From Actinomycetospora cinnamomea (GTDB taxonomy: Bacteria > Actinomycetota > Actinomycetes > Mycobacteriales > Pseudonocardiaceae): 64,000 nucleotides of DNA. Within the stretch, counting starts at the first letter, position 1; each line of letters opens with the position of its first letter. The stretch spans positions 930,001 to 994,000 of the forward strand of contig NZ_QEKW01000001.1 of NCBI RefSeq assembly GCF_003096675.1, read 5' to 3'. This document shows, piece by piece, positions 4,938-34,219 of the stretch. The notes below the pieces were generated by a model, which saw only the letters and a program-made list of their open reading frames with translations, did no database searches and was not told the DNA's origin. Position numbers and translations under genes: made by a program.

Positions 4938-4942
4938 GATCG

Positions 4943-8624: not shown

Positions 8625-8702
8625 CCGCGTCTCCTCACCGCTCGCCGGATGTCCCAGCCTGCCCGATGCCCCGGGCCCGCGACAGGGGGACGAGCGCTGC
8701 GC

Positions 8703-9020: not shown

Positions 9021-9021
9021 G

Positions 9022-11334: not shown

Positions 11335-11452
11335 GCGTCACTCCATCACTCGTACTCGGTAGAAGCTACAAGTGTTGAAGTGGCTACGGTATTCCGTGCC
11401 GACGAGCGCCGGCCGGCCCGCACAGCTCGCGGCCCGGCCGGCGCTGCGCGCG

Positions 11453-13575: not shown

Positions 13576-13651
13576 TCCCGGCGCCGTCGACCGAGGCCCG
13601 GCACCGCACCCCGACCGGGATCCATGACGACGGCGGCCGGGAGGACGCACG

Positions 13652-14956: not shown

Positions 14957-14957
14957 C

Positions 14958-16343: not shown

Positions 16344-16385
16344 CACCGCGTGGACCTTCCCGGGGAACCCGGGCGGTGGTGCACT

Positions 16386-16799
16386 GTGCCGGTGACGCAC
16401 ACACGCCCGGGGACGGCACCGTCCGCGCCGGTGCCGGGCTGGCGGGCCCTCAGCGCGGTGTTCCTGCTGGCGATGGGCGGCATCCACCTCTACCTGGTGT
16501 TCAACGGCACCGGCGGCGTCCTCGGCGACCTGTTCGTGCTCAACGCGATCGGGGGCCTGGTGCTCGCCGTCGCGATCCTGGCCGCGCGCGGGCGGCTGGT
16601 GCCGGTCGCCACCGTGCTGGGGCTGCTGTTCCTCGGGGGGTCGTGGCTGGCGCTCGTGCTCGCCCTGACCGTCGGCCTCTTCGGCATCCGCTCGAGCCTG
16701 GACTACGACCTCGCGCCGACCACGTTGGTCGTGGAGACGATCGGCACGGTGGTCCTGGCCGTCACCACGGTCCTGGTCCTCCGGCGGCGGTCGGGCTGA
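16386..16799 (+). CDS. Small integral membrane protein
   Basis: About 137 residues with four hydrophobic segments: ALSAVFLLAMGGIHLYLVF, LFVLNAIGGLVLAVAILAA, VATVLGLLFLGGSWLALVLA and LVVETIGTVVLAVTTVLV. No domain I recognise; the pattern resembles four-helix DoxX-size membrane proteins. GTG 16386, GTG 16392 and an earlier GTG 16350 are all possible starts and none has a strong ribosome-binding site. It lies between the LytTR gene and the flavoprotein operon. Confidence 0.6.
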   Translation: MPVTHTRPGTAPSAPVPGWRALSAVFLLAMGGIHLYLVFNGTGGVLGDLFVLNAIGGLVLAVAILAARGRLVPVATVLGLLFLGGSWLALVLALTVGLFGIRSSLDYDLAPTTLVVETIGTVVLAVTTVLVLRRRSG

Positions 16800-16855
16800 C
16801 GGAGCCCTCGCGTCCCCTCGTTGCCCGGACCGCACGAACGTGTTCGGATTCCGGC

Positions 16856-18019
16856 GTGGGACCGGGCGACGCAGGAGCGTTCGACGTCGTGGTCGTCGGC
16901 GCCGGGTTCGCCGGGCTGGCGGTGCTGCACCTGCTGCGCGAGCGGGGGCTGCGGGTCCGCGCCTTCGACGCGGCGGGCGACGTCGGCGGCACGTGGTGGT
17001 GGCACGCCTACCCCGGCTCGCGGCTGGACACCGAGTGCGACCTCTACCAGTACTCCTTCTCCGAGTCGCTCTACCGCGACTGGGGCTGGAGCGAGCGCTA
17101 TCCCGCGGGCTACGAGGTGCAGCGCTGGTTCCGCTTCGTGGCCGACCGGCTCGACCTGCGGCGTGACATCGCGCTGTCGACCACCGTCACCGCCGCCCGC
17201 TACGACGACGGCGCCTGGACCGTGCGCACCGACCGCGACGACACGGTCCGCACGCCGGTGCTCGTCACGTGCACCGGGCGGCTCCCCGTGGAACCGGGCC
17301 TCGGCACGGGCGGCTTCAGCGGCACGGTCCTGCGCACGGCGTCCTGGCGGGAGGACGGCCACGACCTGGCCGGGCTGCGTGTCGGGGTGGTCGGGACGAC
17401 GGCGGCGGCGATCCAGCTGGTCCCGGCGGTGGTCGACCGGGTGGCCGGGCTGACCGTCGTGGCGGACCGGGCGCGCGACGTCGTCGCGCGGTCCAACCCG
17501 GTGTACGGCTGGCGCGAGCGCGAGGACTACCGGGCACGGTTCGCCGAGCTCCGCGACGCCCAGGCACCCGCCCCGCCCGCATCCGACCGGGCGGCGATGC
17601 GCGCCCGGCTCGGCGACGAGCGGCTCGCCGAGGTGCTGGTGCCCCACGGCGGGCCCGGTCCGGTCGCCCGGGACTCCGGGTGGCTCGAGGCCTTCGGCCG
17701 GGACCACGTGCGCCTCGTCCGGTCCGAGGAGGTCGCGCGCGTCGGGCCCACGGGCCTCGAGCTCACCGACGGCGCGGCGACCGAGCTCGACGTCCTCGTC
17801 GTCACCGACGACCCCGACGCCGGCCCGCCGGCACGCGAGTACCTCGGGCTGCCCGCGCGCCACCCGGCGCTGTTCACGGTGACCGCATCCGGTGCGGCGC
17901 CCTGCCGGCAGCTCGAGCGTGACGCCACCCGCGTCGCCGGGGCCGCCGCCGACCTGGTCGCCACCGGCCCGGGTCCGGCCGCCCCCGCCGTCCCCACCCC
18001 CGAGCTCCAGGAGCGATGA
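16856..18019 (+). CDS. Baeyer-Villiger-type flavin monooxygenase homologue, shortened and degenerate
   Basis: 387 residues from GTG 16856. FAD motif GAGFAGLAVLHLL sits near residue 14, followed by the DVGGTWWWHAYPGSRLD block typical of BVMOs, keeping the Asp. The BVMO fingerprint FxGxxxHxxxW reads FSGTVLRTASW, so His is Arg. The second nucleotide motif is VGVVGTTAAAIQLVP rather than GxGxxG. At 387 residues it is roughly 120 shorter than typical BVMOs. It may be a reductase or oxidase derived from the family, or an inactive copy. Its stop overlaps the MOSC gene start (ATGA). Confidence 0.7.
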   Translation: MGPGDAGAFDVVVVGAGFAGLAVLHLLRERGLRVRAFDAAGDVGGTWWWHAYPGSRLDTECDLYQYSFSESLYRDWGWSERYPAGYEVQRWFRFVADRLDLRRDIALSTTVTAARYDDGAWTVRTDRDDTVRTPVLVTCTGRLPVEPGLGTGGFSGTVLRTASWREDGHDLAGLRVGVVGTTAAAIQLVPAVVDRVAGLTVVADRARDVVARSNPVYGWREREDYRARFAELRDAQAPAPPASDRAAMRARLGDERLAEVLVPHGGPGPVARDSGWLEAFGRDHVRLVRSEEVARVGPTGLELTDGAATELDVLVVTDDPDAGPPAREYLGLPARHPALFTVTASGAAPCRQLERDATRVAGAAADLVATGPGPAAPAVPTPELQER

Positions 18020-21242: not shown

Positions 21243-21859
21243 CCGCCGAACGCGACCCGCGCCCGCTCCAGCTGCTCGGCGTCGAGGAGGCGGGGCTCGC
21301 CGAGCGCGCGGGCCTGCGCGTAGAGCCGGCAGAGCCACTCGAGCAGGACGCCGCGCTCGTAGGCCTGGGCCAGGTCGTCGCCGTACGTCGTGGCCCCGTG
21401 GTTCGCCAGCAGCACCGCCGAGCGCCCCGCCAGCCCCTCGACCCCGAGGCGCGCGAGCTCCTCGGTGCCGTACGGCGCGTAGGGCGCGACGCGGACCGGA
21501 CCCCCGAGCAGCACGACCATGTAGTGGATCGGCGGCAGCTCGTCGAGCAGGGTCGACAGGGCCGTCGCGTGCACCGGGTGCGTGTGCACGACGGCGCCGG
21601 CGTCGGTGCCCCGGTAGACCGCGGTGTGCATCGGCACCTCCGACGACGGCCGCAGGCGGCCCTCCACCGGCGTGCCGTCGAGGTCGACGACGACGACGTC
21701 CTCGGCGGTCAGGACGTCGTACGGGACGCCGGTCGGGGTGATCGCGACCAGGTCGCCCGCCCGCGTCGAGAGGTTGCCCGACGTCCCGACCGCGAGCCCG
21801 TCGGCGGCCATCCGCCGGGCGTGGGCCACGACGGCCTCGCGCTCGGCGCGCAGCCTCAC
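21158..21859 (-). CDS. Class II aldolase/adducin family, probable deoxyribulose-phosphate-type aldolase
   Basis: 233 residues. Metal and substrate motifs of class II aldolases are clear: GTSGNLSTR, SSEVPMHTAVYRG with the acidic base, the zinc pair HTHPVHATALS, and a late His in LANHGATTYG. The last 28 residues are a Gly/Ser-rich tail encoded within the overlap with the convergent oxidoreductase. It lies 7 bp after the MtnA-type isomerase, so the pair should act in sequence: isomerise a 5-substituted ribose-1-phosphate to the ribulose form, then cleave it to DHAP and an aldehyde, as in the 5-deoxyribose / methylthioribose DHAP shunt. Exact substrate unproven. Start GTG 21859. Confidence 0.85.
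   Translation of the reverse strand: MRLRAEREAVVAHARRMAADGLAVGTSGNLSTRAGDLVAITPTGVPYDVLTAEDVVVVDLDGTPVEGRLRPSSEVPMHTAVYRGTDAGAVVHTHPVHATALSTLLDELPPIHYMVVLLGGPVRVAPYAPYGTEELARLGVEGLAGRSAVLLANHGATTYGDDLAQAYERGVLLEWLCRLYAQARALGEPRLLDAEQLERARVAFGGYGQGGGSAGGGSAGGGSANAGGAWGSR
21189..21233 (+). repeat. 15-bp tandem repeat in the shared 3' ends of two convergent genes
   Basis: Three units of GCCGATCCCCC[G/A]CCC at 21189-21233. On the plus strand they encode ADPPP at the end of the BisC-like protein; on the minus strand they encode GGGSA in the tail of the aldolase. Both reading frames stay open through all copies. Confidence 0.85.
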
Positions 21860-21866
21860 GACAGGC

Positions 21867-22883
21867 TCACGGGACGGGCACCGGGGTCTCGACCGTCCAG
21901 GCGCCGTGGCGGAACGTGGCCGCCTCGGTCACGACCGCGGCGAGCAGCCGGGCCGGGGTGACGTCGAACGCCGGGTTGTAGACCGGGGTGTCGGGCAGCG
22001 TCGTCGGTACGCCCGCGACCGTGCGGACCTCGTCGGCCGCCCGCTCCTCGATGACGATGTCGGCGCCCGAGGCCGTGGCGTGGTCGACGGTCGAGTCGGG
22101 CGCCACCACGACCACGGGGACGCCGCTCTGCGCGGCGGCGCAGGCCAGCGCATAGGTGCCGATCTTGTTGGCGGCGTCGCCGTTGGCGGCCACCCGGTCG
22201 GCGCCGACGACCACGGCGTCGACGAGCCCGCGCGCGATCGCCGAGGCGCCCGCGGAGTCGACGCACAGCCGGTGGGCCACGCCCATCTCGTGGAGCTCCC
22301 ACACGGTGAGGCGCGCGCCCTGCAGGAGCGGGCGGGTCTCGCACGCCAGGACCTCGTCGACGAGCCCGCGCTCGGCGAGCTCGCGCACCGCTCCCAGGCC
22401 GGTGCCCCACGCGACCGTGGCGAGCGCCCCCGAGTTGCAGAGGGTGAGCAGGCGCAGGGGGCGTCCCGGGCACAGCTCGGTGAGGAGGTCCGCGGCCCGC
22501 CGCGACAGGCGACGGTTGGTGGCCTCGTCCTCGTCGAGCACCGCGCGTGCCTCGGCGACCACCGCGTCCGTGCCGTCGTCGAGCCGCCGGAGCGCCCGCT
22601 CGACACCGCGGCGCAGGTTCACCGCCGTCGGGCGGACCGCCGCCACCCGCTCCGCCTCGGCCCGGACACGGTCCGGGTCTCCCGGGTGGGCGCGGGCGGC
22701 GAGAGCGACGCCAAGCGCCCCCGACGCGCCCAGCGCGGGCGCGCCCCGGATCGTGAGGTCGGCGATCGCCGCGACCAGCGCGTCCACCGTGCCGAGGCGC
22801 AGGACGCGGAACTCGGCCGGCAGCGCGCGCTGGTCGATCGCTGTGATCACCCCGTCGTCGTCCCAGTCCACCGTGCGCGCCAT
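21867..22883 (-). CDS. mtnA: Methylthioribose-1-phosphate / deoxyribose-1-phosphate isomerase
   Basis: 338 residues of the eIF2B-alpha-like MtnA family. Family marks are LTIRGAPALGASGALGVALA, the catalytic Cys in LTLCNSGALAT, and the catalytic Asp in GADRVAANGDAANKIGTYA. MtnA converts the aldose-1-phosphate from methylthioadenosine or 5'-deoxyadenosine salvage into the ketose. No mtnB/C/D genes of the full methionine salvage pathway follow; the partner is a class II aldolase, which favours the DHAP-shunt type of disposal. ATG 22883; 47 bp downstream of the cupin regulator on the same strand. Confidence 0.88.
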   Translation of the reverse strand: MARTVDWDDDGVITAIDQRALPAEFRVLRLGTVDALVAAIADLTIRGAPALGASGALGVALAARAHPGDPDRVRAEAERVAAVRPTAVNLRRGVERALRRLDDGTDAVVAEARAVLDEDEATNRRLSRRAADLLTELCPGRPLRLLTLCNSGALATVAWGTGLGAVRELAERGLVDEVLACETRPLLQGARLTVWELHEMGVAHRLCVDSAGASAIARGLVDAVVVGADRVAANGDAANKIGTYALACAAAQSGVPVVVVAPDSTVDHATASGADIVIEERAADEVRTVAGVPTTLPDTPVYNPAFDVTPARLLAAVVTEAATFRHGAWTVETPVPVP

Positions 22884-22930: not shown

Positions 22931-23629
22931 TCAGGCGTGGCCCGCGTCGTGCGCGGCGTCCTCGGGATGGGCGTGGGCGACGACGGACAGGAAGCGGATG
23001 GGCAGGGTGAGCAGCTCGCGCGGCCCGTGCACGCCCTCGCCGTCGAGCTGCAGCGCGTCGCCGGGGTGCAGGGTGTAGCTGGAGGAGCCGTGCCCGTAGA
23101 CCATCGAGCCCTCGAGCACGTAGAGCAGCTCGGTACCCGGGTGCTGGAACAGCGGGAACACCTCGCTGCGCTCGGTGAGGCTGACGAGGTGGGCCTCCAT
23201 GCGCTGGTGCGGGCCCCGCAGGCCGCCGAGCAGCGTGTAGTCGTGCCCCATCCGCGTGCCCCGGGCGACGATCCGCGCCCCGGCGCCGGCCGGCGTGTGC
23301 ACCGCCTCGCGCGGCCCCTCGGCGCCGCGGAAGAACGAGGTGACGGGCACGTCGAGCGCCTCCGCGAGCCCGGCGAGCGTCGTCAGGCTGCAGGAGATCT
23401 GCGCGTTCTCGATCTTCGACAGGGTGGCCTTGGAGATCCCGGCGCGCGCCGCGACCTCCGCCACCGTCGCCCCGCCCAGGCGGCGCAGCTCCCGCACGCG
23501 CACGGCGATGGCCCGTTCGAGCCAGCCGCGGGAGTCGACCGGGCCGGTGATCTCGCGGGCCGCGGGACCGGGCGGAGGGGTCTCCTGGGGCTCCCCCTCG
23601 TTCGCCGCGTCGTTCGCCGGCCGGCTCAC
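22931..23629 (-). CDS. XRE-family regulator with C-terminal cupin sensor
   Basis: 232 residues. A helix-turn-helix lies at about 45-100 (VAEVAARAGISKATLSKIEN, AQISCSLTTLAGLAEAL). A cupin domain covers about 150-225 (HPGTELLYVLEGSMVYGHG, TLHPGDALQLDGEGVHG). Such proteins (PuuR-like) sense small amines, amino acids or related metabolites. It sits 35 bp after mgsC and 47 bp before mtnA on one strand, suggesting it is transcribed with the N-methylglutamate synthase genes. GTG 23629 follows GGTGGG; about 25 residues before the HTH are low-complexity. Confidence 0.82.
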   Translation of the reverse strand: MSRPANDAANEGEPQETPPPGPAAREITGPVDSRGWLERAIAVRVRELRRLGGATVAEVAARAGISKATLSKIENAQISCSLTTLAGLAEALDVPVTSFFRGAEGPREAVHTPAGAGARIVARGTRMGHDYTLLGGLRGPHQRMEAHLVSLTERSEVFPLFQHPGTELLYVLEGSMVYGHGSSSYTLHPGDALQLDGEGVHGPRELLTLPIRFLSVVAHAHPEDAAHDAGHA

Positions 23630-23664
23630 GACCCCACCGTAACGCGGTGCACCCGGGCGGCCGG

Positions 23665-24981
23665 TCAGCTGCCGGGGATCCAGGACGTGCCCGCCAGCGG
23701 CACCCGGGCCATCGCGGCGGACTCCACGGTGAGCGCCACGAGGTCCTCGGGTTCGAGGTGCTGCACGTGGGCCTTGCCGCAGGCGCGGGCCAGCGTCTGG
23801 GTCTCCATCGTCAGCACCCGCAGGTAGTTGGCGAGCCGGTGACCGGCCTCGACGGGGTCGAGCCGGGCGGCGAGCTCCGGGTCCTGGGTGGTGATCCCGG
23901 CCGGGTCCCGCCCGTCCTGGAAGTCGTCGTAGTAGCCCGCGGCCGAGCCGATCGCCTCGTACTCGGCGGCGAAGCGCGGGTCGTTGTCGCCGAGGGCGAT
24001 GAGCGCGGCGGTGCCGATCGCCACCGCGTCCGCGCCCAGCGCCAGCGCCTTGGCGACGTCGGCGCCGGTGCGGATGCCGCCGGAGACGACGAGCTGCACC
24101 TTGCGGTGCACGCCGAGCTCGCGCAGCGCCTGCGCCGCCTGCGGGATGGCCGCGAGGATCGGGATGCCGACGTGCTCGATGAACACCTCCTGCGTGGCGG
24201 CCGTGCCACCCTGCATCCCGTCGACCACGACGACGTCCGCGCCGGCGGCCACCGCCAGCTTGACGTCGTAGTAGGTCCGGGTGGCGCCGACCTTGACGTA
24301 GACCGGCTTCTCCCAGTCGGTGATCTCCCGCAGCTCGCCGATCTTGATCGCGAGGTCGTCCGGGCCCGTCCAGTCGGGGTGGCGGCAGGCGGAGCGCTGG
24401 TCGATGCCGGGCGGGAGCGTGCGCATGTCGGCCACGCGATCGGAGATCTTCTGCCCCAGCAGCATCCCGCCGCCCCCGGGCTTCGCGCCCTGGCCGAGCA
24501 CGACCTCGATGGCGTCCGCGGCCCGCAGGTGGTCCGGGTTCATCCCGTACCGGCTCGGCAGCAGCTGGTAGACCAGCGTCTTCGACTCGCCGCGCTCCTC
24601 GTCGGTCATCCCGCCGTCGCCGGTGGTCGTCGACGTGCCGACCTCGCTGGCCCCGCGTCCCAGCGCCTCCTTCGCCTGCGCGGAGAGCGCGCCGAAGCTC
24701 ATGCCGGCGATGGTCACCGGGATGTCGAGGTGCAGCGGACGGGTGGCGTGGCGGTCGCCGAGGACGACGTCGGTGTCGCAGCGCTCGCGGTAGCCCTCGA
24801 GGGGGTAGCGCGACATCGAGGCACCGAGGACGAGCAGGTCGTCGAAGTGGGGCACGGCGCGCTTGGCGCCCCAGCCGCGGATGTCGTAGACGCCGGTGCG
24901 GGCGGCGTGCTGGATGGCGGCGATGGTGGCGCGGTCGAACGTGGCCGACTCCCGCAGCCCCCGCTCGGCGGGGTCCTTCAT
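23665..24981 (-). CDS. mgsC: N-methylglutamate synthase subunit C (glutamate-synthase FMN domain)
   Basis: 438 residues corresponding to the central FMN/Fe-S domain of the glutamate synthase large subunit: MSFGALSAQAKEALGRGA, GTSTTTGDGGM, IEVVLGQGAKPGGGGMLLG, VVDGMQGGTAATQEVF, VVSGGIRTGADVAKALALGA. In MgsABC the large GOGAT polypeptide is split into three genes and transfers the methylamine group of gamma-glutamylmethylamide to 2-oxoglutarate, giving N-methylglutamate. Overlaps mgsB by ATGA. The alternative, a true ammonia-type glutamate synthase, is less likely because gmaS and mgd genes are next door and no gltD is present. Confidence 0.82.
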   Translation of the reverse strand: MKDPAERGLRESATFDRATIAAIQHAARTGVYDIRGWGAKRAVPHFDDLLVLGASMSRYPLEGYRERCDTDVVLGDRHATRPLHLDIPVTIAGMSFGALSAQAKEALGRGASEVGTSTTTGDGGMTDEERGESKTLVYQLLPSRYGMNPDHLRAADAIEVVLGQGAKPGGGGMLLGQKISDRVADMRTLPPGIDQRSACRHPDWTGPDDLAIKIGELREITDWEKPVYVKVGATRTYYDVKLAVAAGADVVVVDGMQGGTAATQEVFIEHVGIPILAAIPQAAQALRELGVHRKVQLVVSGGIRTGADVAKALALGADAVAIGTAALIALGDNDPRFAAEYEAIGSAAGYYDDFQDGRDPAGITTQDPELAARLDPVEAGHRLANYLRVLTMETQTLARACGKAHVQHLEPEDLVALTVESAAMARVPLAGTSWIPGS

Positions 24982-25646
24982 CCGTAGCTCCCGTGGTCGC
25001 CCGTGAAGTGGTAGAGGGTCCGCGCCGAGCCGTACCGGCGGAACTCCTCGGGCCGGTGGTCGAGACCCGCCGCCGCGAGGAGCTCGGCGAGCTCGGCGCG
25101 GTGCTCGTCGCGCATCTCCTTCTCGACGCAGTCCGCCCCGAGCGTGCCGGTCCTGCCGCGGACGTAGAGCCGCGCCTCGTAGATCGAGTCACCGAGCCCG
25201 TCGCCCGCGTCGCCGCAGACCACCAGCCGGCCCGCCTGCGCCATGAACGCGCCCATCGCGCCGATGTCGCCGCCGACCACGATGTCGCTGCCCTTCATCG
25301 AGATCCCGCAGCGCATCGACGCCCGGCCCTCGATCACCAGCAGCCCACCGCGGCCCGTGGCGCCGGCGGACTGCGACGCGTCGCCGCGCACCCGCACCGA
25401 GCCCGACATCATGTTCTCGGCGACGCCGTTGCCCACCGAACCGTCGACGACGACGTGCGCGCGCTGGTTCATCCCCGCGCAGAAGTAGCCCGCATGGCCG
25501 CGCACGCGGACGTCGATCTCGTCGTGGACGCCCGCCGCGATCGAGTGGGCCCCGGCGGGGTGGAGCACCTCGTAGGACCGCGCGGTCGGGGCGTGGAGCT
25601 CGGCGTTGAGCGCGCGGACCCCCACCTCGTGCAGGTCGACCGTCAC
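24978..25646 (-). CDS. mgsB: N-methylglutamate synthase subunit B (GXGXG domain)
   Basis: About 222 residues forming the right-handed beta-helix GXGXG domain found at the C-terminus of glutamate synthase: repeats such as VVVDGSVGNGVAENMMSG, VRVRGDASQSAGATG, IVVGGDIGAMGAFMAQAG and LVVCGDAGDGLGDSIYE. It is a structural subunit with no catalytic residues of its own. Start uncertain: GTG 25646 leaves a 38-bp gap to mgsA, whereas GTG 25697 would overlap mgsA by 13 bp and has AAGG upstream. Its stop overlaps the mgsC start. Confidence 0.8.
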   Translation of the reverse strand: MTVDLHEVGVRALNAELHAPTARSYEVLHPAGAHSIAAGVHDEIDVRVRGHAGYFCAGMNQRAHVVVDGSVGNGVAENMMSGSVRVRGDASQSAGATGRGGLLVIEGRASMRCGISMKGSDIVVGGDIGAMGAFMAQAGRLVVCGDAGDGLGDSIYEARLYVRGRTGTLGADCVEKEMRDEHRAELAELLAAAGLDHRPEEFRRYGSARTLYHFTGDHGSYG

Positions 25647-25684
25647 CGCCGGGGCGGGGTCCCGCTCCCCGGCCTCGGCCCGGC

Positions 25685-26578
25685 TCAGCGCTGCCACGTG
25701 TAGACCTTGCCGGGATCCGGCTCGAAGATGCGGGCCTCGCCGATGCCGGGCAGCTCGGCCAGTGCCCGGAACTCCGAGGCCATGGCGACCCAGCGCGGGT
25801 GCTCGGCGATCACGGCCGGCTTGCAGGCGATCTCGTCGCGGACCACCGCGAAGCCGTCGGCGGTCGTGACGAGCAGCGTGTAGAAGCCGTCGAAGGTCTC
25901 CCCGAGGCGCAGCAGGGCCTTCTCGAGGTCGTCGCCGTCGGCGAGGCACGCCGCGACGAAGCGGGCGCCGACCTCGGTGTCGTTCTCGGAGTCGAAGGTG
26001 ACGCCCCTGCGCTCGAGCTCCCGGCGGATCGTGGCGTGGTTGGAGAACGACCCGTTGTGCACCAGGCACTGGTCGGGCCCCACCGAGTACGGGTGGCAGC
26101 CCTCCGGGTTGATCGCGGACTCGGTGGCCATGCGGGTGTGGGCGAGGCCCTGCCAGCCGCTGACCTCCCGCAGGCCGTAGGTCCGGGCGAGGTCCTGCGG
26201 GTGGCCCGCGCCCTTGTAGACCACGACGTCGTCGCCCCGCCCGACGACGAGCGCCTCGGGAGCGGCGGCGGTCACCGCGGCGGCGAGCGTCTCCCCCGTC
26301 ACCGGTGCGGTGAGCACGGTGGTGTCCCCCGCCCGGCTCGCGGTGACGTCGGGTGTCCCGGGCAGCAGCGCGGCCACGGAGCGGTCGAGATCGCCGGGAG
26401 CCCGCAGGACCGACACGGCGGCCTGGCCCCCCGGGTTGCGACGGTCGTCGCCGTACACGGCGACGCCCACCGAGTCGGGCCCGCGCTCGGACACGCCGCA
26501 CAGCATGTCGTCGAGGAGGCGGCCGAGCATCGGGTGCAGCTCGGGATCGCGGAGGTGGAGACCGATGATGCCGCACAC
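25685..26578 (-). CDS. mgsA: N-methylglutamate synthase subunit A (class II glutamine amidotransferase)
   Basis: 297 residues of the Ntn glutaminase family. The start is fixed by chemistry: the nucleophile must be Cys2, and GTG 26578 gives M-C-G-I-I-G-L, with AGGAAGG about 11 nt upstream; GTG 26587 would put three residues before the Cys. Other family marks are HTRMATES, VHNGSFSNHATIRREL and SENDTEVGARF. It should release methylamine from gamma-glutamylmethylamide, or ammonia from glutamine, for transfer by MgsC. First gene of the minus-strand mgsABC run; a 21-bp palindrome lies 116 nt upstream. Confidence 0.82.
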   Translation of the reverse strand: MCGIIGLHLRDPELHPMLGRLLDDMLCGVSERGPDSVGVAVYGDDRRNPGGQAAVSVLRAPGDLDRSVAALLPGTPDVTASRAGDTTVLTAPVTGETLAAAVTAAAPEALVVGRGDDVVVYKGAGHPQDLARTYGLREVSGWQGLAHTRMATESAINPEGCHPYSVGPDQCLVHNGSFSNHATIRRELERRGVTFDSENDTEVGARFVAACLADGDDLEKALLRLGETFDGFYTLLVTTADGFAVVRDEIACKPAVIAEHPRWVAMASEFRALAELPGIGEARIFEPDPGKVYTWQR

Positions 26579-26693
26579 GGGGCTCACCTTCCTGCGTCCA
26601 AGGAGGACCGGGTCGGAGTACTACCACGAAACTACGTTGCGCCGTACGAAACGTCGAGGCCTCCCCGACGCGGCGTCGCGGGTGCACCCGATT

Positions 26694-26714
26694 TTGGTCT
26701 GAAAGGCAGACCAA
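26694..26714. promoter_or_regulatory. Perfect palindrome, candidate GntR/FadR operator upstream of mgsA
   Basis: Arms TTGGTCTG and CAGACCAA are exact inverted repeats around a 5-nt spacer. The arms match the TTGGTC..GACCAA pattern common for FadR-subfamily regulators such as PdhR and LldR. The site lies between the mgsA start (26578) and the stop of the gntR gene (26775). Confidence 0.65.
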
Positions 26715-26774
26715 GACGAACGGCAACGATAGGAGTCCCACCCCACACCGTGTCCAGGCCGTGGGCGGCGTGGC

Positions 26775-27506
26775 TCAGCTGGCGGGCCACTCCGCGTCGT
26801 CCACCCCGTCCTCGTCGGCGCCGAAGACGATGATCCTCAGCTGGCGGCGCGAATGCTCCAGGTGCGCGCGCATCGCCTCGGCCGCACCGTCGGCGTCCCC
26901 CCGGCGGACGGCGTCGAGGACGGCCTGGTGATCACGCAGGGTCTCCTCGACCGGCTCCCGGAACGGCAGGAGGTCCCGCGGGCTGAAGAGCTCCCCGCGA
27001 GCCGTCTCGACGGCCTCCTCCAGCCGCTCGTTGCGGGCGGCCCGGGCGAGGGCGATGTGGAAGCGGGAGTCGGCCTGGCGGAAGGCGGTCCGGCCGATGA
27101 CGTCGTGCAGGGCCTCGACCGCCTCGCGCACGGGGACCAGGCTGCTCTCGGTGTGCCGGCGCGCGGCGAGCACCGCGGTCTCGGTCTCCAGCGCGATCCG
27201 GAAGTCCAGGATGTCGTCGATCTCGCCCACCTGTGCCCGCATGCGCGCCCGCCACGCCTCGGCCGGCCGGCGGAGCTCGGTGACGTAGGTGCCTCCGCTC
27301 GAGCCGCGTCGGACCTCGACGTAGCCGTCCTCGCGCAGCTGGCGGATGGCCTCGCGCAGGCTGATGCGGGCCACACCCAGCTGCTCGGCGAGCTCCCGCT
27401 CCGCAGGCAGGCGCTCTCCCGGGCTGACGTCACCGCGGTGGATCCGCATCCTGAGGTGGTCGGCCACCGCCTGCGCCAGCGTGGTGGACGTGACCTGGCG
27501 GGCCAT
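26775..27506 (-). CDS. GntR family (FadR subfamily) regulator, probable regulator of the NMG genes
   Basis: 243 residues. Winged helix in the first 75 residues (LRMRIHRGDVSPGERLPAER, LGVARISLREAIRQLREDGY, RRGSSGGTYV). The C-terminal FCD all-helical effector domain covers about 95-230, with the metal/ligand residues D..R of ILDFRIALE, HIALARAARN and DHQAVLDAV. It lies between mgsABC (same strand) and gmaS (divergent), and GGTC/GACC palindromes occur in both promoters. It is therefore the natural candidate repressor of the methylamine pathway. ATG 27506. Confidence 0.85.
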   Translation of the reverse strand: MARQVTSTTLAQAVADHLRMRIHRGDVSPGERLPAERELAEQLGVARISLREAIRQLREDGYVEVRRGSSGGTYVTELRRPAEAWRARMRAQVGEIDDILDFRIALETETAVLAARRHTESSLVPVREAVEALHDVIGRTAFRQADSRFHIALARAARNERLEEAVETARGELFSPRDLLPFREPVEETLRDHQAVLDAVRRGDADGAAEAMRAHLEHSRRQLRIIVFGADEDGVDDAEWPAS

Positions 27507-27571
27507 GAGCCGGAGGGTACCGCGAGCCGTCACCCTGCGTGATCCACGCGCGAGCGGCGGGTGTGACGGGG

Positions 27572-27611
27572 TTGACACTCCGCCCCCGGCCCGGTTGCCT
27601 GACCAATGGTC
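27572..27611 (+). promoter_or_regulatory. gmaS promoter region with second GACCA-A-TGGTC operator
   Basis: A -35-like TTGACA at 27572-27577 is followed by an 11-bp palindrome GACCAATGGTC at 27601-27611. Its half site GACCA/TGGTC is also present in the palindrome upstream of mgsA. The -10 hexamer is not obvious. The site is 60 nt before the gmaS start, so a bound regulator could block the promoter. Confidence 0.5.
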
Positions 27612-27671
27612 CTAAGTCCACACCTTGCAGGCCCGACGAGGTCGTCGGTCGTCGCGACGGAGGAGGCCGCC

Positions 27672-29024
27672 ATGGGTGACGCACGGAGCGATCTACGGGA
27701 ACGCGCCGAGGCCGACGGCATCGAGTTCTTCCTGGCCATGTTCGTGGACCTCCACGGCAAGCCGTGCGCCAAGGCGGTCCCGTTCTCGTCGTTCGACCTG
27801 CTCATGGACGGGGGTGCCGGCTTCGCCGGGTACGCCGCGGGCGACCTCGGGCAGTCCCCGGCCGACCCGGACGTGCTCGCCGTCCCGGACCCGAGGTCGT
27901 ACACGCCCCTGCCGTGGAAGCCCGGTGTCGCGGTGCTGCACTGCGACCCGCACGTCGACGGCCGCCCGTGGCCCTACGCGCCCCGGGTGATCCTGCGCCG
28001 CCAGCTCGACGAGCTCGCCGAGAAGCGCGGCTGGATCCTCAACACCGGCACCGAGCTCGAGTACAGCCTCCTGCGCCGCCGCGAGGACGGGACCCTGGAG
28101 ATCGCCGACCCGCACGACACCGCCGCCAAGCCCTGCTACGAGGTCAAGGGCCTCACGCGCATGTGGGACCACCTGTCCACCGTGTCGAAGCACCTGAACA
28201 CGTTGCAGTGGGGCAACTACGCGAACGACCACGAGGACGGCAACGGCCAGTTCGAGAACAACTGGCACTACGCGGACGCGCTGACCACCGCCGACCGCAC
28301 GATCTTCTTCCGCTACATGATCCACATGCTGGCGCACGACGCCGGCATGGTCGCGACGTTCATGCCCAAGCCGTTCAGCCACGTCACCGGCAACGGGCTC
28401 CACGTGCACCAGAGCCTGTGGACGCAGGACGGCACACCGCTGTTCGAGGACACGTCGGACGCGCTCGGCCTGTCGCCCCTCGCGTACCACTACCTGGGCG
28501 GGCTGATCGAGCACGGCCGGGCGGTCGCGGGCGTCATCTGCCCCACCGTCAACTCCTACAAGCGCATCGGCGTCGGCGCCCCCACCTCCGGCTCGACCTG
28601 GGCGCCGGCCTACGTCGCCTACGGCGGCAACAACCGCACGGTGATGCTGCGCGTGCCCGAGGGCGGGCGCATCGAGCACCGGGGGGTCGACGGGTCGGCG
28701 AACCCCTACCTGGCCGCCACCGCGCTGCTCGCCGCCGGCCTCGACGGCATCGACCGGGAGCTCGACCCGGGCGCGGTCACCGACGACAACCTCTTCGCCC
28801 TGCACCCCGACGAGGTGCGCGCCCGCGGCATCCAGCACCTGCCGCGCACGCTCGACCGGGCCGTCGAGGAGCTCGTCGCCGACGACGTCCTGCGGGCCGC
28901 GTTCGGCAAGACCTCGGGCGGCGACTTCATCGACTACTTCGCCGCGGTCAAGCAGCAGGAGTTCGACGAGTACCACGCCTCCGTCTCGGACTGGGAGGTC
29001 CGGCGGTACCTGACCCAGGCGTGA
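27672..29024 (+). CDS. gmaS: Gamma-glutamylmethylamide synthetase (type III glutamine synthetase-like)
   Basis: 450 residues from ATG 27672, behind GGAGGAGG. Glutamine synthetase motifs: NTGTELEYSLL (metal Glu), NGQFENNWHYAD, GNGLHVHQSLW (metal His), NSYKRIGVGAPTSGSTWAP and NRTVMLRVPEGGRIEHRG. The N-terminal GAGFAGYAAGDLG and PDPRSYTPLPWKPGVAVL are of the GlnT/GmaS kind, not housekeeping GlnA, which also lacks such neighbours. GmaS joins methylamine to glutamate with ATP. First gene of the plus-strand operon with mgdABCD, 32 bp ahead of mgdA. Confidence 0.85.
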   Translation: MGDARSDLRERAEADGIEFFLAMFVDLHGKPCAKAVPFSSFDLLMDGGAGFAGYAAGDLGQSPADPDVLAVPDPRSYTPLPWKPGVAVLHCDPHVDGRPWPYAPRVILRRQLDELAEKRGWILNTGTELEYSLLRRREDGTLEIADPHDTAAKPCYEVKGLTRMWDHLSTVSKHLNTLQWGNYANDHEDGNGQFENNWHYADALTTADRTIFFRYMIHMLAHDAGMVATFMPKPFSHVTGNGLHVHQSLWTQDGTPLFEDTSDALGLSPLAYHYLGGLIEHGRAVAGVICPTVNSYKRIGVGAPTSGSTWAPAYVAYGGNNRTVMLRVPEGGRIEHRGVDGSANPYLAATALLAAGLDGIDRELDPGAVTDDNLFALHPDEVRARGIQHLPRTLDRAVEELVADDVLRAAFGKTSGGDFIDYFAAVKQQEFDEYHASVSDWEVRRYLTQA

Positions 29025-29056
29025 GACCCCGGACCGGAACGGACTGGAGGACCTCG

Positions 29057-30367
29057 GTGTCCACCTCGCACGGCACAGCCCGCACGAACGGCAACGGGCA
29101 CGCGCGCACCAGGTCGGGGCTGCGCGGCTACTCGGCCTGGAGCCTGCTGCGTCACGGGCTCTCGCGGTCCGGGTGGCCGCGGGCGTGGCGGGAGCACGAG
29201 CTGCGCGACCGCTACGACGCGGTGATCATCGGTGGCGGGGTGCACGGTCTGGCGACGGCCTACTACCTGGCGCGGGACCACGGCATGCGCCACATCGCGG
29301 TGCTCGAGCGCGCCTACGTGGGCAGCGGCGGGTCGGGGCGCAACACGGCGATCCTGCGGTCGAACTACCTCACGCCGGAGGGTGTGCGCTTCTACGACCG
29401 GTCGATCCAGCTCTACGAGCACCTGGCCGCGGACCTGAACTTCAACGTGATGTTCTCCCAGCGCGGGCACCTGACGTTGGCCCACAACGACGCCTCGTTG
29501 CGCACGATGCGCTGGCGCACCGAGGTCAACAAGCTCCAGGGCGTGGACTCCGAGGTGATCGGCCCGGACCGCATCGGCGAGCTGGTGCCGTACCTGGACA
29601 CCTCGGCCGAGACCCGCTATCCGATCCTGGGGGCGCTGTACCACCCGCCGGGCGGGATCGTGCGCCACGACGCGGTGGTGTGGGGCTACGCCCGCGGGGC
29701 GGACGCGCACGGGGTGCACATCCACCAGCAGACCGAGGTCACCGGCATCGACGTCGAGCACGGCCGGGTGCGCGGGTTACGCACGAACCGGGGACGGATC
29801 GCGACCCCGGTGGTGCTCAACGCCACCGCGGGCTGGTCGAGCCTGGTCTCGCACCAGGCCGGGGTCGAGATGCCGGTGCAGACCTTCCCGCTGCAGGCCG
29901 CGGTGACCGAGCCGGTGCGCCCGTTCCTCGACACCGTCGTGGTCTCGGGGACGCTGCACGTCTACGTGTCCCAGACCGACCGCGGCGAGCTGGTGTTCGG
30001 CGCCTCGGTGGACCCGTTCGCCTCGTACTCGATCCGGGGGTCGCTGGAGTTCACCGAGGGCATCGCCGGGCACGTGCTGGAGCTGATGCCCGCACTGCAC
30101 CGGATGCGGCTGCTGCGTCAGTGGGCCGGGTTGTGCGACATGACCCCGGACTACTCGCCGATCATGGGCCCGACCCCGGTGGAGGGGTTCTACGTCGACG
30201 TCGGGTGGGGCACCTACGGCTTCAAGGCCGGCCCGGTCTCCGGGGAGGCGATGGCCGCCTGCATCGCCGACGGCAAGCCGCCCGAGATCATCTCCGCGTT
30301 CGGGCTCGACCGCTTCGCCGACGGACGTCTCGTCGGCGAGAAGGGAGCGGCCGCGGTGGGCCACTAG
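29057..30367 (+). CDS. mgdA: N-methylglutamate dehydrogenase subunit A (sarcosine oxidase beta-like)
   Basis: 436 residues from GTG 29057 after GGAGG. FAD-binding IIGGGVHGLATAYYLARDHG begins near residue 56, and GSGGSGRNTAILRSNYLTPEG is the SoxB block after it. The C-terminus holds the DAO-fold closing motif GWGTYGFKAGPVSGEAMA. The leader YSAWSLLRHGLSRSGWPRAWR is the usual SoxB N-terminus. In the heterotetramer this subunit oxidises the N-methyl group. It is assigned to N-methylglutamate rather than sarcosine because gmaS is directly upstream and no glyA or serine-cycle gene is nearby. Confidence 0.8.
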   Translation: MSTSHGTARTNGNGHARTRSGLRGYSAWSLLRHGLSRSGWPRAWREHELRDRYDAVIIGGGVHGLATAYYLARDHGMRHIAVLERAYVGSGGSGRNTAILRSNYLTPEGVRFYDRSIQLYEHLAADLNFNVMFSQRGHLTLAHNDASLRTMRWRTEVNKLQGVDSEVIGPDRIGELVPYLDTSAETRYPILGALYHPPGGIVRHDAVVWGYARGADAHGVHIHQQTEVTGIDVEHGRVRGLRTNRGRIATPVVLNATAGWSSLVSHQAGVEMPVQTFPLQAAVTEPVRPFLDTVVVSGTLHVYVSQTDRGELVFGASVDPFASYSIRGSLEFTEGIAGHVLELMPALHRMRLLRQWAGLCDMTPDYSPIMGPTPVEGFYVDVGWGTYGFKAGPVSGEAMAACIADGKPPEIISAFGLDRFADGRLVGEKGAAAVGH

Positions 30368-30418
30368 CCCGACTCCCGCCGACCCGCCCCTTCCCGTGCC
30401 CTTCCCGAGGTGATCACT

Positions 30419-30706
30419 GTGATGCTGCTCCCCTGCCCCTGGTGCGGGCCCCGCCACGCGGGAGAGTTCCGGTTCCACGGCGCGGCCGGGACCCGACCCG
30501 ACCCCGCCACGACCACGCCCGAGCAGTGGCGGCGCTACCTGTACGTCCACGACAACCCCCGCGGCTGGCAGACCGAGTCCTGGTACCACTCCGCCGGCTG
30601 CCGCCGATTCCTCACCGTCGAACGGAACACCCTCACCCACGAGGTGCGCTCGGCCCGCGACACGCAGCTGGACGCAGCGCCGAACGCAGCGGAGGACGCC
30701 CGATGA
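30419..30706 (+). CDS. mgdB: N-methylglutamate dehydrogenase subunit B (sarcosine oxidase delta-like)
   Basis: About 95 residues. The zinc-binding start LLPCPWCGPRHAGEFRF and the later YHSAGCRRFLTVERNT are the SoxD family marks; W in DNPRGWQTESWYHSAGC is typical. Small structural subunit that holds a zinc ion in the heterotetramer. GTG 30419 and ATG 30422 both suit the CGAGG site; an earlier GTG 30410 is also in frame. Its TGA overlaps the mgdC ATG by 4 bp. Confidence 0.82.
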   Translation: MMLLPCPWCGPRHAGEFRFHGAAGTRPDPATTTPEQWRRYLYVHDNPRGWQTESWYHSAGCRRFLTVERNTLTHEVRSARDTQLDAAPNAAEDAR

Positions 30707-33573
30707 GCATCCTGCCCACCAGCCGGCGCGCCCGATCCGCCACCGGCGCCGGTGGGGCCGGTGGTCCCGCCCCGATGCGGCTCGCGCCCCGCGAGGGCGA
30801 GGTCATCGACCGGAAGCGCAGCGTGGAGTTCCGCTGGAACGGCACCCCCTACACCGGCCACCCCGGCGACACGATCGTCTCGGCGCTCGCCGCCGCCGGG
30901 GAGCGGGTGTTCTCGCGCAGCTACAAGTACCACCGGCCGCGGGGGGTGCTGACCGCGAGCTACCTCGACCCCGGCGCCATGGTGCAGGTCGGCGACGAGC
31001 CCAACGTGCGCGCCGCGCACCGGCTGGTCGCCGCCGGGATGGACGTGCGCTCGCAGAACACCTGGCCCTCGCTGCGCTACGACGTCAAGGCGGTCAACGG
31101 GCTCGTCGAACGCTTCCTGGCGACCGGCTTCTACTACAAGACCTTCATCAAGCCCGAGCCGCTGTGGCCGCTCTACGAGAAGGTGCTCCGCACGTTCGTG
31201 CACGCCGGGGAGATCCCGCCCGACAGCGCCCCGGGCTGCTACGACCAGCGCTACGCCCACCCCGACGTCGTCGTCGCGGGCGGCGGCCCCGCGGGCATGG
31301 CGGCCGCGGTGGCCGCCGCGCGGGCGGGAGCGACGGTGATGCTGGTCGAGGAGGAGCACCAGCTCGGCGGGCACCTGCGCTTCGGCGGGCCGGCCGAGCG
31401 GGCGCGGCTGCGCGAGCTGGCCGCCGCGGTCGCCGCCCAGCCCGGCATCGAGGTGCTCACCGACGCGGTGGTCGAGGCGCGCTACGACGACAACTGGATC
31501 CCGATCGTGGCGCGCAGCCTGCCCGGGATCGACGAGCGGCTGATCAAGGCCCGCGCCGGCACCCTGGTGGTCGCCCCGGGCCTCGTCGAACGGCCCTACG
31601 TCTTCGCCGGCAACGACCTGCCCGGGGTGATGCTGTCCACCGCCGCCCGCCGGCTGATCAACCTCTACGCGGTCAGGCCCGGCCACCGGGCGGTGGTGCT
31701 CACCGCCAACCCCGAGGGCGACGCCGCCGTGGCCGACCTCGAGTCCGCGGGGGTCGAGGTCGCCGCGGTGGTGGACGCCCGCCGCGGCGAGACCGTCACC
31801 GCCGCCCACGGCCGCCACGGGGTGCGGGCGGTCGAGCTCGGCGACGGGCGCCGCGTCGAGGCCGACCTGCTGGTCACCGCGGTCGGGTGGACCGCACCGA
31901 CCTCACTGCTCAACCAGTCCGGCGACCAGCCGGTCTACGACCCGCGCGCCGCGCGGTTCCGGCCCGACCCCGCCCGGATGCCCGACGACGTGCTCGCCGC
32001 CGGCGGCATCGCCGGCGACGGCGACCTCGACCAGCTCGTCGCCCACGCCGACGCCGTCGGCCGCGAGGCCGCCCGCCGTGCGGGTGCCGCGGGTGGCGCG
32101 GGTGCCGGCTCGGCGGTCGCGGTCCCCTCACTCGCCGTGGACGAGCACCCCGAGCTGTTCTCGGCCGGCACCGGCGGCTTCGTCGACCTGTCCGAGGACG
32201 TCTCGGCCAAGGACATCACCACTGCGGTCGCCGAGGGCTACGACTCGGTCGAGCTGGCCAAGCGCTACACCACCGCCACCATGGGCCCCACCCAGGGCAA
32301 GCTCGAGACCGTCAACACCGTCGCGATCCTCGCCGCCGCCACCGGCCGCAGCATCGCCGAGACCGGCACCACCACCTGGCGCCCCATGTACGCCCCGATC
32401 ACCCTCGGCGCGCTGGCCGGACGCCCCCACCAGCCCGTGCGGTACTCCCCGATGCAGCCCTGGCACGAACGCCACGGCGCGGTCCCGCTCGTCGCCGGGC
32501 AGTGGATCCGCCCCGAGCACTACGGCGACCCCGCCGCCGAGGTGACCGCCGTGCGCACCGGCGTGGGGATCATCGACGTCACCCCGATCGGCAAGCTCGA
32601 CCTGCAGGGCCCCGACGTGGCGAAGCTGCTCGAACTGCTCTACGTCAACAAGTGGCAGAAACTCGGCATCGGCCGGGTGCGCTACGGGGTCATGTGCGCC
32701 GAGGACGGCGTCGTGCTCGACGACGGCGTCACCGGGCGCCTCGGCGAGCAGCACTACCTCATGTCCACCACCTCCTCCGGGGCGGCGACGGTGTGGGAGT
32801 GGGTCGAGAACTGGCTGCAGACCGCGCACCCCGACTGGCGGGTGCACGTCACCCCGGTGACCACCGCCTACGCCAGCATCAACATCGCCGGCCCCCGCTC
32901 CCGTGACCTGCTCGCCCGCCTCACCACCGACGTCGACCTCTCCGCCGAGGCGTTCGGCTACATGAACGTGCGCACCGGCACCGTCGCCGGCATCGCCGAC
33001 TGCGTCCTCTGGCGCATCGGGTTCACCGGCGAGCTCTCCTACGAGATCCACGTCCCCGCCTCCTACGGCCTGCACGTGTGGCAGCGCCTCCTCGACGCCG
33101 GCGCGGACCTGGGCGTGCGGCCCTTCGGCGTCGAGGCCCAACGCGTCCTGCGCCTGGAGAAGGGCCACGCCATCGTCGGCCAGGACACCGACGGGCTCAC
33201 CCAGGCGTTCAGCGCCGGCGTCGACGAGCTCATCAAGCTCGACAAGCCCGACTTCCTCGGCAAGCCCGAGCTCGTCTGGCAACACCAGCGCGGCACCCAC
33301 CCCCGCCTGGTCGGCCTGCAGCCCCTCGACGGGTCGATCGTGCCGCCCGAGGCCAGCCAGATCCTCGACCGCGCGGGAGGGATCGCCGGGCGCGTGACGT
33401 CGAGCCGCATGTCCCCGACCCTCGGGCGCGCGATCGGGCTGGCCCAGCTCGACCCGGAGCTCGCCGTCGTCGGCACCCACGTCACGGTCCGGCTGCCCGA
33501 CGGCAGCGACGTCACCGCCGAGGTCACCGAGCGCGTCCACGTCGACCCCCAGGGGGAACGCCAGCGTGTCTGA
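30703..33573 (+). CDS. mgdC: N-methylglutamate dehydrogenase subunit C (sarcosine oxidase alpha-like)
   Basis: 956 residues, normal for SoxA. Order of parts: ferredoxin-like fold without Fe-S cysteines (about 35-130, VEFRWNGTPYTGHPGDTIV), a Rossmann NAD/FAD domain (VVVAGGGPAGMAAAVAAARAG near 188, then LVVAPGLVERPYVFAGND), a linker, and a C-terminal GcvT-like folate domain (about 590-950, with YMNVRTGTVAGIADC and FTGELSYEIHVP). The folate domain would take the C1 unit as methylene-tetrahydrofolate. ATGA overlap with mgdB, and an 8-bp overlap with mgdD. Confidence 0.83.
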   Translation: MSILPTSRRARSATGAGGAGGPAPMRLAPREGEVIDRKRSVEFRWNGTPYTGHPGDTIVSALAAAGERVFSRSYKYHRPRGVLTASYLDPGAMVQVGDEPNVRAAHRLVAAGMDVRSQNTWPSLRYDVKAVNGLVERFLATGFYYKTFIKPEPLWPLYEKVLRTFVHAGEIPPDSAPGCYDQRYAHPDVVVAGGGPAGMAAAVAAARAGATVMLVEEEHQLGGHLRFGGPAERARLRELAAAVAAQPGIEVLTDAVVEARYDDNWIPIVARSLPGIDERLIKARAGTLVVAPGLVERPYVFAGNDLPGVMLSTAARRLINLYAVRPGHRAVVLTANPEGDAAVADLESAGVEVAAVVDARRGETVTAAHGRHGVRAVELGDGRRVEADLLVTAVGWTAPTSLLNQSGDQPVYDPRAARFRPDPARMPDDVLAAGGIAGDGDLDQLVAHADAVGREAARRAGAAGGAGAGSAVAVPSLAVDEHPELFSAGTGGFVDLSEDVSAKDITTAVAEGYDSVELAKRYTTATMGPTQGKLETVNTVAILAAATGRSIAETGTTTWRPMYAPITLGALAGRPHQPVRYSPMQPWHERHGAVPLVAGQWIRPEHYGDPAAEVTAVRTGVGIIDVTPIGKLDLQGPDVAKLLELLYVNKWQKLGIGRVRYGVMCAEDGVVLDDGVTGRLGEQHYLMSTTSSGAATVWEWVENWLQTAHPDWRVHVTPVTTAYASINIAGPRSRDLLARLTTDVDLSAEAFGYMNVRTGTVAGIADCVLWRIGFTGELSYEIHVPASYGLHVWQRLLDAGADLGVRPFGVEAQRVLRLEKGHAIVGQDTDGLTQAFSAGVDELIKLDKPDFLGKPELVWQHQRGTHPRLVGLQPLDGSIVPPEASQILDRAGGIAGRVTSSRMSPTLGRAIGLAQLDPELAVVGTHVTVRLPDGSDVTAEVTERVHVDPQGERQRV

Positions 33574-34219
33574 GGAAACCGTCCCGCTCGCCCGCAGCCC
33601 GATCGCCACGGACCCGACGGTCGTCGTCGCCGGGTGGGAGGTCTGCGCCCGCGTGTCCACCGCACCGCTGACGCTCTCCGACGAGACCCCGCTGGCCAAG
33701 GTGCTCGTGCGCGCCCCGTTCGGCGGGGCCGCGCGGGACGCCCTGGGGGTGTCGTTCGGCCGCACCGCGCGTGTCGGCCTCGGGACGGCGGGCGAGGTCC
33801 TGCTCGTCGGCTCCGCGCCGGGCGAGTGGCTGGCGCTGGGCGCCCCCGGCACAGCGGCCGCGATCCGGGCGGCGCTCGAGGAGCGCCTCGCCGGCACCGG
33901 GGAGTTCGTCTCGGTCCTCGACCTCACCCACGGCCGGGCCCTCGTGCGCCTGCACGGCGCGGCCGCGCCGGTCGTGCTGGCCGGGGTCTGCGGGATCGAC
34001 CTCGCGGACCACGTCACCCCCGACGGGACGGCGCTGCGGACATCGGTCGCCGCGGTGGTGACCGACCTCGTGCGCGACGACGACGGCGGCGTCCGGTCCT
34101 ACCTGCTGCACTGCGAGCGCTCGTCGGGTCAGTACCTGGTCGACGCGCTGCGGGACGCCGGGTCGCCGTCGGGGCTCGAGGTCACCGGGTTCCGCGGGCT
34201 GGTCCCGTCGTCAGCGTGA
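33566..34219 (+). CDS. mgdD: N-methylglutamate dehydrogenase subunit D (sarcosine oxidase gamma-like)
   Basis: 217 residues from GTG 33566, inside the end of mgdC, with GGGGGAA upstream. The SoxG fold is seen in GTAGEVLLVGSAPGEWLALG, VSVLDLTHGRALVRLHG and CGIDLADHV. It closes the conserved soxBDAG order, which is also the mgdABCD order. Helps form the folate-binding face of the complex. A TetR gene converges 33 bp downstream. Confidence 0.78.
   Translation: MSEETVPLARSPIATDPTVVVAGWEVCARVSTAPLTLSDETPLAKVLVRAPFGGAARDALGVSFGRTARVGLGTAGEVLLVGSAPGEWLALGAPGTAAAIRAALEERLAGTGEFVSVLDLTHGRALVRLHGAAAPVVLAGVCGIDLADHVTPDGTALRTSVAAVVTDLVRDDDGGVRSYLLHCERSSGQYLVDALRDAGSPSGLEVTGFRGLVPSSA

Follow-up and report, generated by a model that had tools for sequence, protein, structure and literature searches.

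The window, a stretch of 64,000 nucleotides from Actinomycetospora cinnamomea (contig NZ_QEKW01000001.1), carries at positions 23665-34219 a complete N-methylglutamate (NMG) gene set, with eight structural genes in one place: gmaS, mgsABC and mgdABCD. Domain profile searches of the open reading frames (ORFs) placed mgsC, mgsB, mgsA and the gene for a GntR regulator on the minus strand and gmaS-mgdA-mgdB-mgdC-mgdD on the plus strand:

23665..24981, minus strand: mgsC, FMN-domain subunit of N-methylglutamate synthase (PF01645, 309.5 bits)
24978..~25697, minus strand, start codon inferred: mgsB, GXGXG subunit, overlapping mgsA (PF01493, 33.1 bits against a cut-off of 32.5 on 24978-25655)
25685..26578, minus strand: mgsA, class-II glutamine-amidotransferase subunit with N-terminus (M/V)CGIIG (PF13522, PF13537)
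26775..27578, minus strand, true start perhaps ~27506: GntR-family regulator, divergent to gmaS (GntR-family NCBIfam matches; all those shown fall below their own cut-offs)
27672..29024, plus strand: gmaS, gamma-glutamylmethylamide synthetase (TIGR03105, 601 bits against a cut-off of 469.6)
29057..30367, plus strand: mgdA (soxB-type), substrate-oxidising flavin subunit of NMG dehydrogenase (PF01266, 238.9 bits)
30410..30706, plus strand: mgdB (soxD-type), small subunit with CxxC and H-x4-C (TIGR01374, 100.6 bits against a cut-off of 116.5)
30703..33573, plus strand: mgdC (soxA-type), with 2Fe-2S, FAD/NAD and tetrahydrofolate (GcvT) domains (PF13510, PF07992, PF17806, PF01571, PF08669; TIGR01372, 846 bits, under the cut-off of 1164)
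33566..34219, plus strand: mgdD (soxG-type) subunit (TIGR01375, 54.1 bits against a cut-off of 143.95; PF04268, 22 bits against a cut-off of 21)

A first-pass annotation of this DNA had described a gmaS-type synthetase, genes in soxBDAG order and an opposite-strand three-gene glutamate synthase, and all are present where it placed them. The overlaps it claimed are exact, an ATGA between the soxD-type and soxA-type genes (30703-30706) and 8 bp between the soxA-type and soxG-type genes (33566-33573); mgsB and mgsC overlap by 4 bp (24978-24981). Because the gene order recurs in relatives, a chance arrangement is excluded. As the annotation had also said, gltD, glyA and folate-pathway genes are absent nearby, at least among the ORFs tested, which are a part of those in the window (~9-43 kb). 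Its central claim of a complete NMG locus likewise stands, on the family, tree and residues of GmaS, the three-subunit synthase, and the four-subunit dehydrogenase with its tetrahydrofolate (THF) domain.

Phylogeny and active-site residues set the window GmaS apart from glutamine synthetases. In a quick tree (no bootstrap; 148 rows reduced by hand to 94; the chosen outgroup not forming one side of a branch), it fell within an actinobacterial clade of 38 rows (Shimodaira-Hasegawa-like approximate likelihood-ratio test, SH-aLRT, 98) inside a GmaS-like group. Between this group and GlnA lies a long branch (0.87, SH-aLRT 100); the phylogeny proposed by the annotation, once run, revealed no clustering with glutamine synthetases. 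The closest solved structures are 7cql ('Type III glutamate--ammonia ligase') and 9qur ('Glutamate--methylamine ligase'). From the fit of residue numbering, we infer that 7cql is the GmaS of Rhodovulum sp. 12E13 (RhGmaS) of PMC7948447, the available part of which is our source for residue roles. RhGmaS Lys30, Ala48, Tyr147, Asp177, Glu179, Glu186, Asn188, Trp300 and Arg312 are all conserved in the window protein, in which the ammonium-site Asp of glutamine synthetase is replaced by Ala and the flap Glu by Trp. An ordinary glutamine synthetase was rejected on the tree together with these two replacements.

The dehydrogenase is similarly distinct from sarcosine oxidase. Our unrooted MgdA tree had 34 rows, comprising 32 of the 41 collected sequences (at least 40% identical to the window protein) and two PDB chains. 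Window MgdA lies in a 20-row clade (support 100/100), apart from the SoxB chains of 2gag and 3ada, from a SoxB-type protein of its own genome and also from nine alphaproteobacterial rows, all gmaS- or mgs-linked. Within this clade, gmaS is present in the available stretch for all 20 rows and further mgd or mgs genes for 19, the exception being L055, a 3.1-kb contig. Immediately before the GFK motif, all 20 clade rows have Tyr or Trp and all four SoxB rows have Gly (one of the four, L191, is counted as SoxB by annotation and has a weak tree position); eight of the nine alphaproteobacterial rows read GWCYGGFK and the ninth is cut. MgdA also keeps the Arg of R-S-N-Y and the Lys of GFK, which we take, after monomeric sarcosine oxidase, to bind the alpha-carboxylate.

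A sarcosine oxidase identity for the mgd genes was rejected on the 100/100 branch between MgdA and authentic SoxB; the clustering with sarcosine oxidase beta subunits that would have spoken against the annotation was not seen. A sarcosine-oxidase-type locus does exist on another contig of this genome: L100 (G000:C26:1-20000) combines a glyA gene, recognised because it matches the glyA annotated in L190, with soxBDA-type genes and a protein with a GcvT domain. This is likely the true sarcosine oxidase locus of the genome.

The synthase differs at MgsC from what is expected of ordinary glutamate synthase (GOGAT). MgsC has no Cys in the 22 residues preceding GITTQDP; its same-genome paralogue, MgsC2, has C-x2-C-x4-C, and the window protein reads Y-F-D at those three columns. 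Among 89 aligned rows, 58 (the window included) have no Cys at these columns, one has one, eight have two and 22 have three. We assume that the columns mark the place of the GOGAT Fe-S site, although the first-Cys spacing in MgsC2 presumably differs from that of GOGAT. Ordinary GOGAT was rejected on these cysteines, none of which is found at the Fe-S place in MgsC.

Taking gene content, domains, trees, residues and synteny together, we conclude that the locus very probably encodes a complete NMG route from methylamine; the substrate, how the route runs and is regulated, and its chief use for nitrogen supply are all deduced from these. GmaS would join methylamine to glutamate in an ATP-driven reaction, giving gamma-glutamylmethylamide. 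MgsABC would convert this to N-methylglutamate, probably by a redox-neutral exchange, because MgsC lacks Cys at the Fe-S place and the neighbouring ORFs that were tested, the extent of our search for gltD, include no GltD partner. MgdABCD would then oxidise the N-methyl group, pass the methyl carbon to THF as methylene and regenerate glutamate, for a net outcome of ammonium and a one-carbon (C1) unit for FolD and PurU, both encoded in the genome away from the locus. Nitrogen supply is likely to be the role of the locus rather than carbon use.

Genomes drawn from the genus, family and phylum were searched for gmaS-type genes at E <= 1e-120. Matches were found in 17 of 18 same-genus genomes (its own included), in 2 of 19 other genomes drawn from the family and, across the phylum, in 22 of the 396 sampled; a scan of named genomes covered the best 80 of 593 candidates, and absences there carry no meaning. 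The 17 genus genomes split into 11 with the cluster type of the window (type I) and six with a second (type II), which has a gmaS of 54-56% identity and mgsABC, followed by one gene for an FAD oxidoreductase that is 27-30% like MgdA. This DAO-family oxidoreductase stands after mgsC in place of mgdABCD, as at L062:13397-14578. In type I, mgd genes lie downstream of gmaS in 10/11 loci (those of G004 and G013 are cut by contig ends).

The two halves of the window locus have different affinities. Outside the genus, the sequences closest to window GmaS and MgdA are those of L077 (76% and 79% identity). Window MgsC, however, resembles the MgsC of type II loci in the genus (88-90%) far more closely than that of L077 (68%), and the GmaS and MgsC trees (the latter built quickly from 67 of 88 rows) agree with this split. 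Therefore the halves appear to have had different histories. As judged by sequence affinity, the locus is a mosaic, with the gmaS-mgdABCD half going with the L077 lineage and the mgsABC half with those clusters of the genus that have an FAD oxidase, and this mosaic structure is what is new here. The locus also shows pathway halves recombining, one genus having two cluster types with a common synthase but different ligases and demethylases. More broadly, a well-defined pathway, with its eight structural genes together, is extended to a genus in which 17 of the 18 genomes searched have a gmaS-type gene.

Clusters of relatives also include purU (L061, L071, L072, L075) or folD (L077). Between mgsA and gntR, eight of the 11 type I loci (L061, L063, L066, L067, L069, L070, L071, L075) have an APC transporter of the ethanolamine-permease group, a candidate methylamine importer. 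This permease is absent from the window and from the L064 cluster; L072 is cut at that point.

Several findings weigh against the NMG reading. RhGmaS Gln175 is Ala in the window GmaS, as in GlnA rows, and the pocket is thus not kept in full; in the available part of PMC7948447, Gln175 belongs to the ATP/methylamine site and pocket residues are mostly highly conserved, strictly so only Arg312, Asp177 and Glu186. We considered the replacement as a sign of an odd enzyme and reduced it to a caveat, as Ala, the GlnA residue, is common at 175 in the actinobacterial GmaS clade (in the rows whose motif was matched). Because the strictly conserved set is Arg312, Asp177 and Glu186, and because the Ala-bearing actinobacterial clade is largely mgs-linked, we do not take Gln175 as defining the NMG pathway. 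The Cys loss in MgsC is non-diagnostic, some NMG-type loci, such as L192, keeping all three. Scores of mgdB, mgdC and mgdD below the NCBIfam sarcosine-oxidase cut-offs (mgdA was outside that scan) say little, because the SoxA of the same genome, found in two pieces, also falls below. In one type I genome, G007 (84% complete), gmaS is not followed by mgd genes, even with 7 kb of contig left at its locus, L066 (G007:C30). The APC permease nearest to the cluster type in the window's own genome is 32% identical, leaving uptake unexplained. Finally, there is a copper amine oxidase gene at G000:C12:153834-155045 (PF01179, 544 bits), on the contig that also carries tmm and tdm; its product could oxidise methylamine directly, so that the NMG route may not be the sole one.

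These genes could also be read as a glutamine synthetase III and a glutamate synthase beside a sarcosine oxidase operon, that is, as ammonium assimilation next to glycine-betaine catabolism. The NCBIfam labels point that way ('type III glutamate--ammonia ligase' for gmaS, 'sarcosine oxidase ... family' for the mgd genes), as does the Ala that GmaS shares with GlnA at 175. But the GmaS and MgdA trees disagree, the ammonium Asp and flap Glu are lost, MgsC has no Cys at the Fe-S place, gltD and glyA are not among the tested ORFs and the sarcosine-oxidase-type locus beside glyA sits elsewhere in the genome; we regard this explanation as very improbable. A gamma-glutamyl-alkylamide pathway with the same chemistry and another small amine, such as ethylamine, in place of methylamine seems very unlikely. 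Loss of Gln175 alters the amine pocket, its residues being those given in the accessible portion of PMC7948447, and a 1-naphthylamine-glutamylating enzyme is published (PMC11335346, available in part), but the coupling to a sarcosine-oxidase-type enzyme with a THF domain, with purU or folD in the clusters of some relatives, implies an N-methyl product. Full methylotrophy, in which the locus serves both carbon and nitrogen needs, would add to the NMG reading and not oppose it; FolD, PurU, Tmm and Tdm are all encoded in the genome, and we consider this unlikely.

Two further features accompany the NMG genes:

22931..23602, minus strand, 5' end approximate: XRE-family regulator with a C-terminal cupin domain (HTH_3 and Cupin_2 in the C-terminal part of frame 22931-25192)
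27572..27626, plus strand: putative gmaS promoter/operator, TTGACAC, then AATGGTCCTAAGTCCACACC (alignment of genus loci; function inferred)

TTGACAC and a close version of AATGGTCCTAAGTCCACACC are kept in 11/11 genus loci aligned, the window included; the twelfth aligned row, L077, is non-homologous there. Because the upstream ATG at 27606 falls within this conserved intergenic element, the gmaS start is most likely 27672. The XRE-cupin gene flanks mgsC just past the low end of the locus and has homologs near the cluster in many relatives of both types, and gntR adjoins gmaS in the type I loci of the genus; the two proteins are the likely regulators.

On the far side of mgsC, about 2.4 kb away, lies a gene for a BisC/TorA-family molybdopterin S/N-oxide reductase (18930-21242, plus strand; TIGR00509, 873 bits against a cut-off of 1017.55), possibly a trimethylamine N-oxide (TMAO) or dimethyl sulfoxide reductase. 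Adjoining the cluster is a pair encoding a class II aldolase and an MtnA-type isomerase (21158-22883, minus strand), perhaps for 5-deoxyribose or methylthioribose salvage. MtnA is also found beside the cluster in L061, L063, L066 and L075.

Elsewhere in the genome, contig C12 carries a set (the DIMETHYLAMINE lead) at L197 (G000:C12:128000-147900), positions 3-17648, with tmm, tdm, two amt genes for ammonium-type transporters, folD and a second ligase-synthase-oxidase set. The trimethylamine monooxygenase scores 805.6 bits (cut-off 675) and the TMAO demethylase 1186.3 bits (cut-off 1100). The second set consists of the ligase GlnT2, an amidotransferase, the FMN subunit MgsC2 with its three Cys and a DAO-family oxidase, Fad2; its GXGXG subunit is uncalled, and we infer its presence from a gap of fitting size. 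A PurU gene is also on C12. GlnT2 conserves the RhGmaS residues at nine columns and has Val in place of the ammonium Asp; this holds for 12 of 13 rows, the other being without two columns. Fad2 has R-N-N-Y and GYK motifs in 9/9 rows.

It is quite possible, though short of probable, that the window locus is the final section of a trimethylamine pathway with glutamate-bound intermediates, in which the C12 set would handle dimethylamine without a monooxygenase. GlnT2 would make gamma-glutamyl-dimethylamide, Mgs2 would convert it to N,N-dimethylglutamate, Fad2 would demethylate this to N-methylglutamate, and MgdABCD would complete the route. Our marker for the dimethylamine-monooxygenase catalytic subunit was PF11927, which we take to be DUF3445, chosen after a Paracoccus plasmid gene order of DmmA, then a PDR/VanB reductase, then a DUF3445 protein. 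Two scans of the window's genome, which is 97% complete, found no PF11927 match. PF22290 (the DmmA domain; 21.7 bits in this genome, under the cut-off of 33) was dropped as a marker, being unspecific: it matches 32 of 61 relatives, 16 of them over the cut-off.

We then searched 80 of 88 GmaS-bearing genomes, not a random sample, for TMAO demethylase, GlnT2 and PF11927. TMAO demethylase was found at E <= 1e-120 in 28 (22 over the family cut-off), GlnT2 in 25 at the limit used, or 23 once two at 40-43% identity were dropped, and PF11927 in 27. The 28 TMAO-demethylase genomes comprise 18 with GlnT2 only, eight with PF11927 only, one with both (G475) and one with neither (G004, 83% complete). By Fisher exact tests that ignore relatedness, GlnT2 and PF11927 segregate among these 28 (p = 2.5e-5) and GlnT2 goes with TMAO demethylase (p = 2.8e-8). 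Both states occur within Alphaproteobacteria and within the window's phylum, the latter with one PF11927 case (G395) among the 28. GlnT2 lies at most 20 kb from tdm in 16 of the 19 genomes with both.

In five SAR11 loci (L128, L133, L135, L136, L150), the order is tdm-fad2-glnT2-mgsA2-mgsC2-amt-gmaS, with 55-71% identity to the C12 set; other SAR11 loci are cut or differ in order. The accessible part of PMC5520151 describes SAR11 as without dmmDABC, and that of PMC8918994 reports growth of SAR11 strain HTCC1062 with TMAO as the only nitrogen source and postulates that an unknown isoenzyme carries out the dimethylamine step. A C12-type set would fill this gap, because bacteria that lack DmmDABC yet grow on TMAO nitrogen have this set between tdm and gmaS. 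If so, GlnT2-Mgs2-Fad2 would be the missing dimethylamine route; our literature search found no earlier proposal of a glutamate-bound one.

Other observations speak against the dimethylamine proposal. GlnT2 occurs without TMAO demethylase in G374, G461, G466 and G470 (at a contig end in G470), as does PF11927 in 18 genomes. Mgs2 may serve methylamine too, because in six SAR11 loci (L128, L133, L135, L136, L143, L150) the two ligases are accompanied, within the stretch available, by no synthase set other than Mgs2. Fad2 could act on N-methylglutamate, because its relatives are found next to the NMG clusters of G169 and of G305, a genome that has no GlnT2. Among the 17 genus genomes with GmaS, only three have GlnT2 and four TMAO demethylase, and PF11927 is found in 5/6 type II and 0/11 type I genomes; most type I genomes would therefore have neither upstream route.

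The first-pass annotation knew of no detailed characterisation in this lineage, and our search of the open-access literature found none for actinobacterial gmaS or NMG genes or for Pseudonocardia. The lineage is not new to the pathway, however: McTaggart 2015 (PMC5023230, available in part) proposed it for Mycobacterium sp. 141 and 155. These strains share with the window an actinobacterial gma-mgsABC, proposed for methylamine oxidation, but in the accessible text their mgdABCD is at a separate place, whereas the window has all genes together. Three named mycobacterial loci (L109, L110, L186) have a single FAD oxidase after mgsC. On a Streptomyces plasmid, that place is taken by an FAD oxidoreductase (not matched by the L062 query at threshold), followed by S-(hydroxymethyl)mycothiol dehydrogenase, an arrangement that points to a formaldehyde-releasing N-methylglutamate oxidase. 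For Binatota, NMG pathway genes are named in a figure legend of PMC8262859, the part of that source available.

With heterotetrameric sarcosine oxidase (2gag, 1vrq/3ada) the window genes share the subunit set, domains, R-S-N-Y and GFK motifs and RHD/KHD region, but window MgdA belongs to a separate clade with an aromatic residue before GFK, and no glyA stands beside it among the ORFs tested. The Acidithiobacillus caldus plasmid cluster (L192) likewise brings together soxB-, soxD- and soxA-type genes, gmaS and three glutamate-synthase-type genes, along with purU and folD; its genes are all on one strand, unlike those of the window, and its MgsC keeps the three cysteines. The proteobacterial NMG pathway (gmaS, mgsABC, mgdABCD) was described in Methyloversatilis (Latypova 2010, as cited in the available part of PMC3160333). 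It has in common with the window the eight structural genes with their domains and the soxBDAG gene order; some relatives have XRE or GntR regulators and APC permeases nearby. In the window, by contrast, the gmaS-mgd operon is divergent from mgsABC, and its MgdA clade stands apart from the nine alphaproteobacterial Mgd rows sampled.

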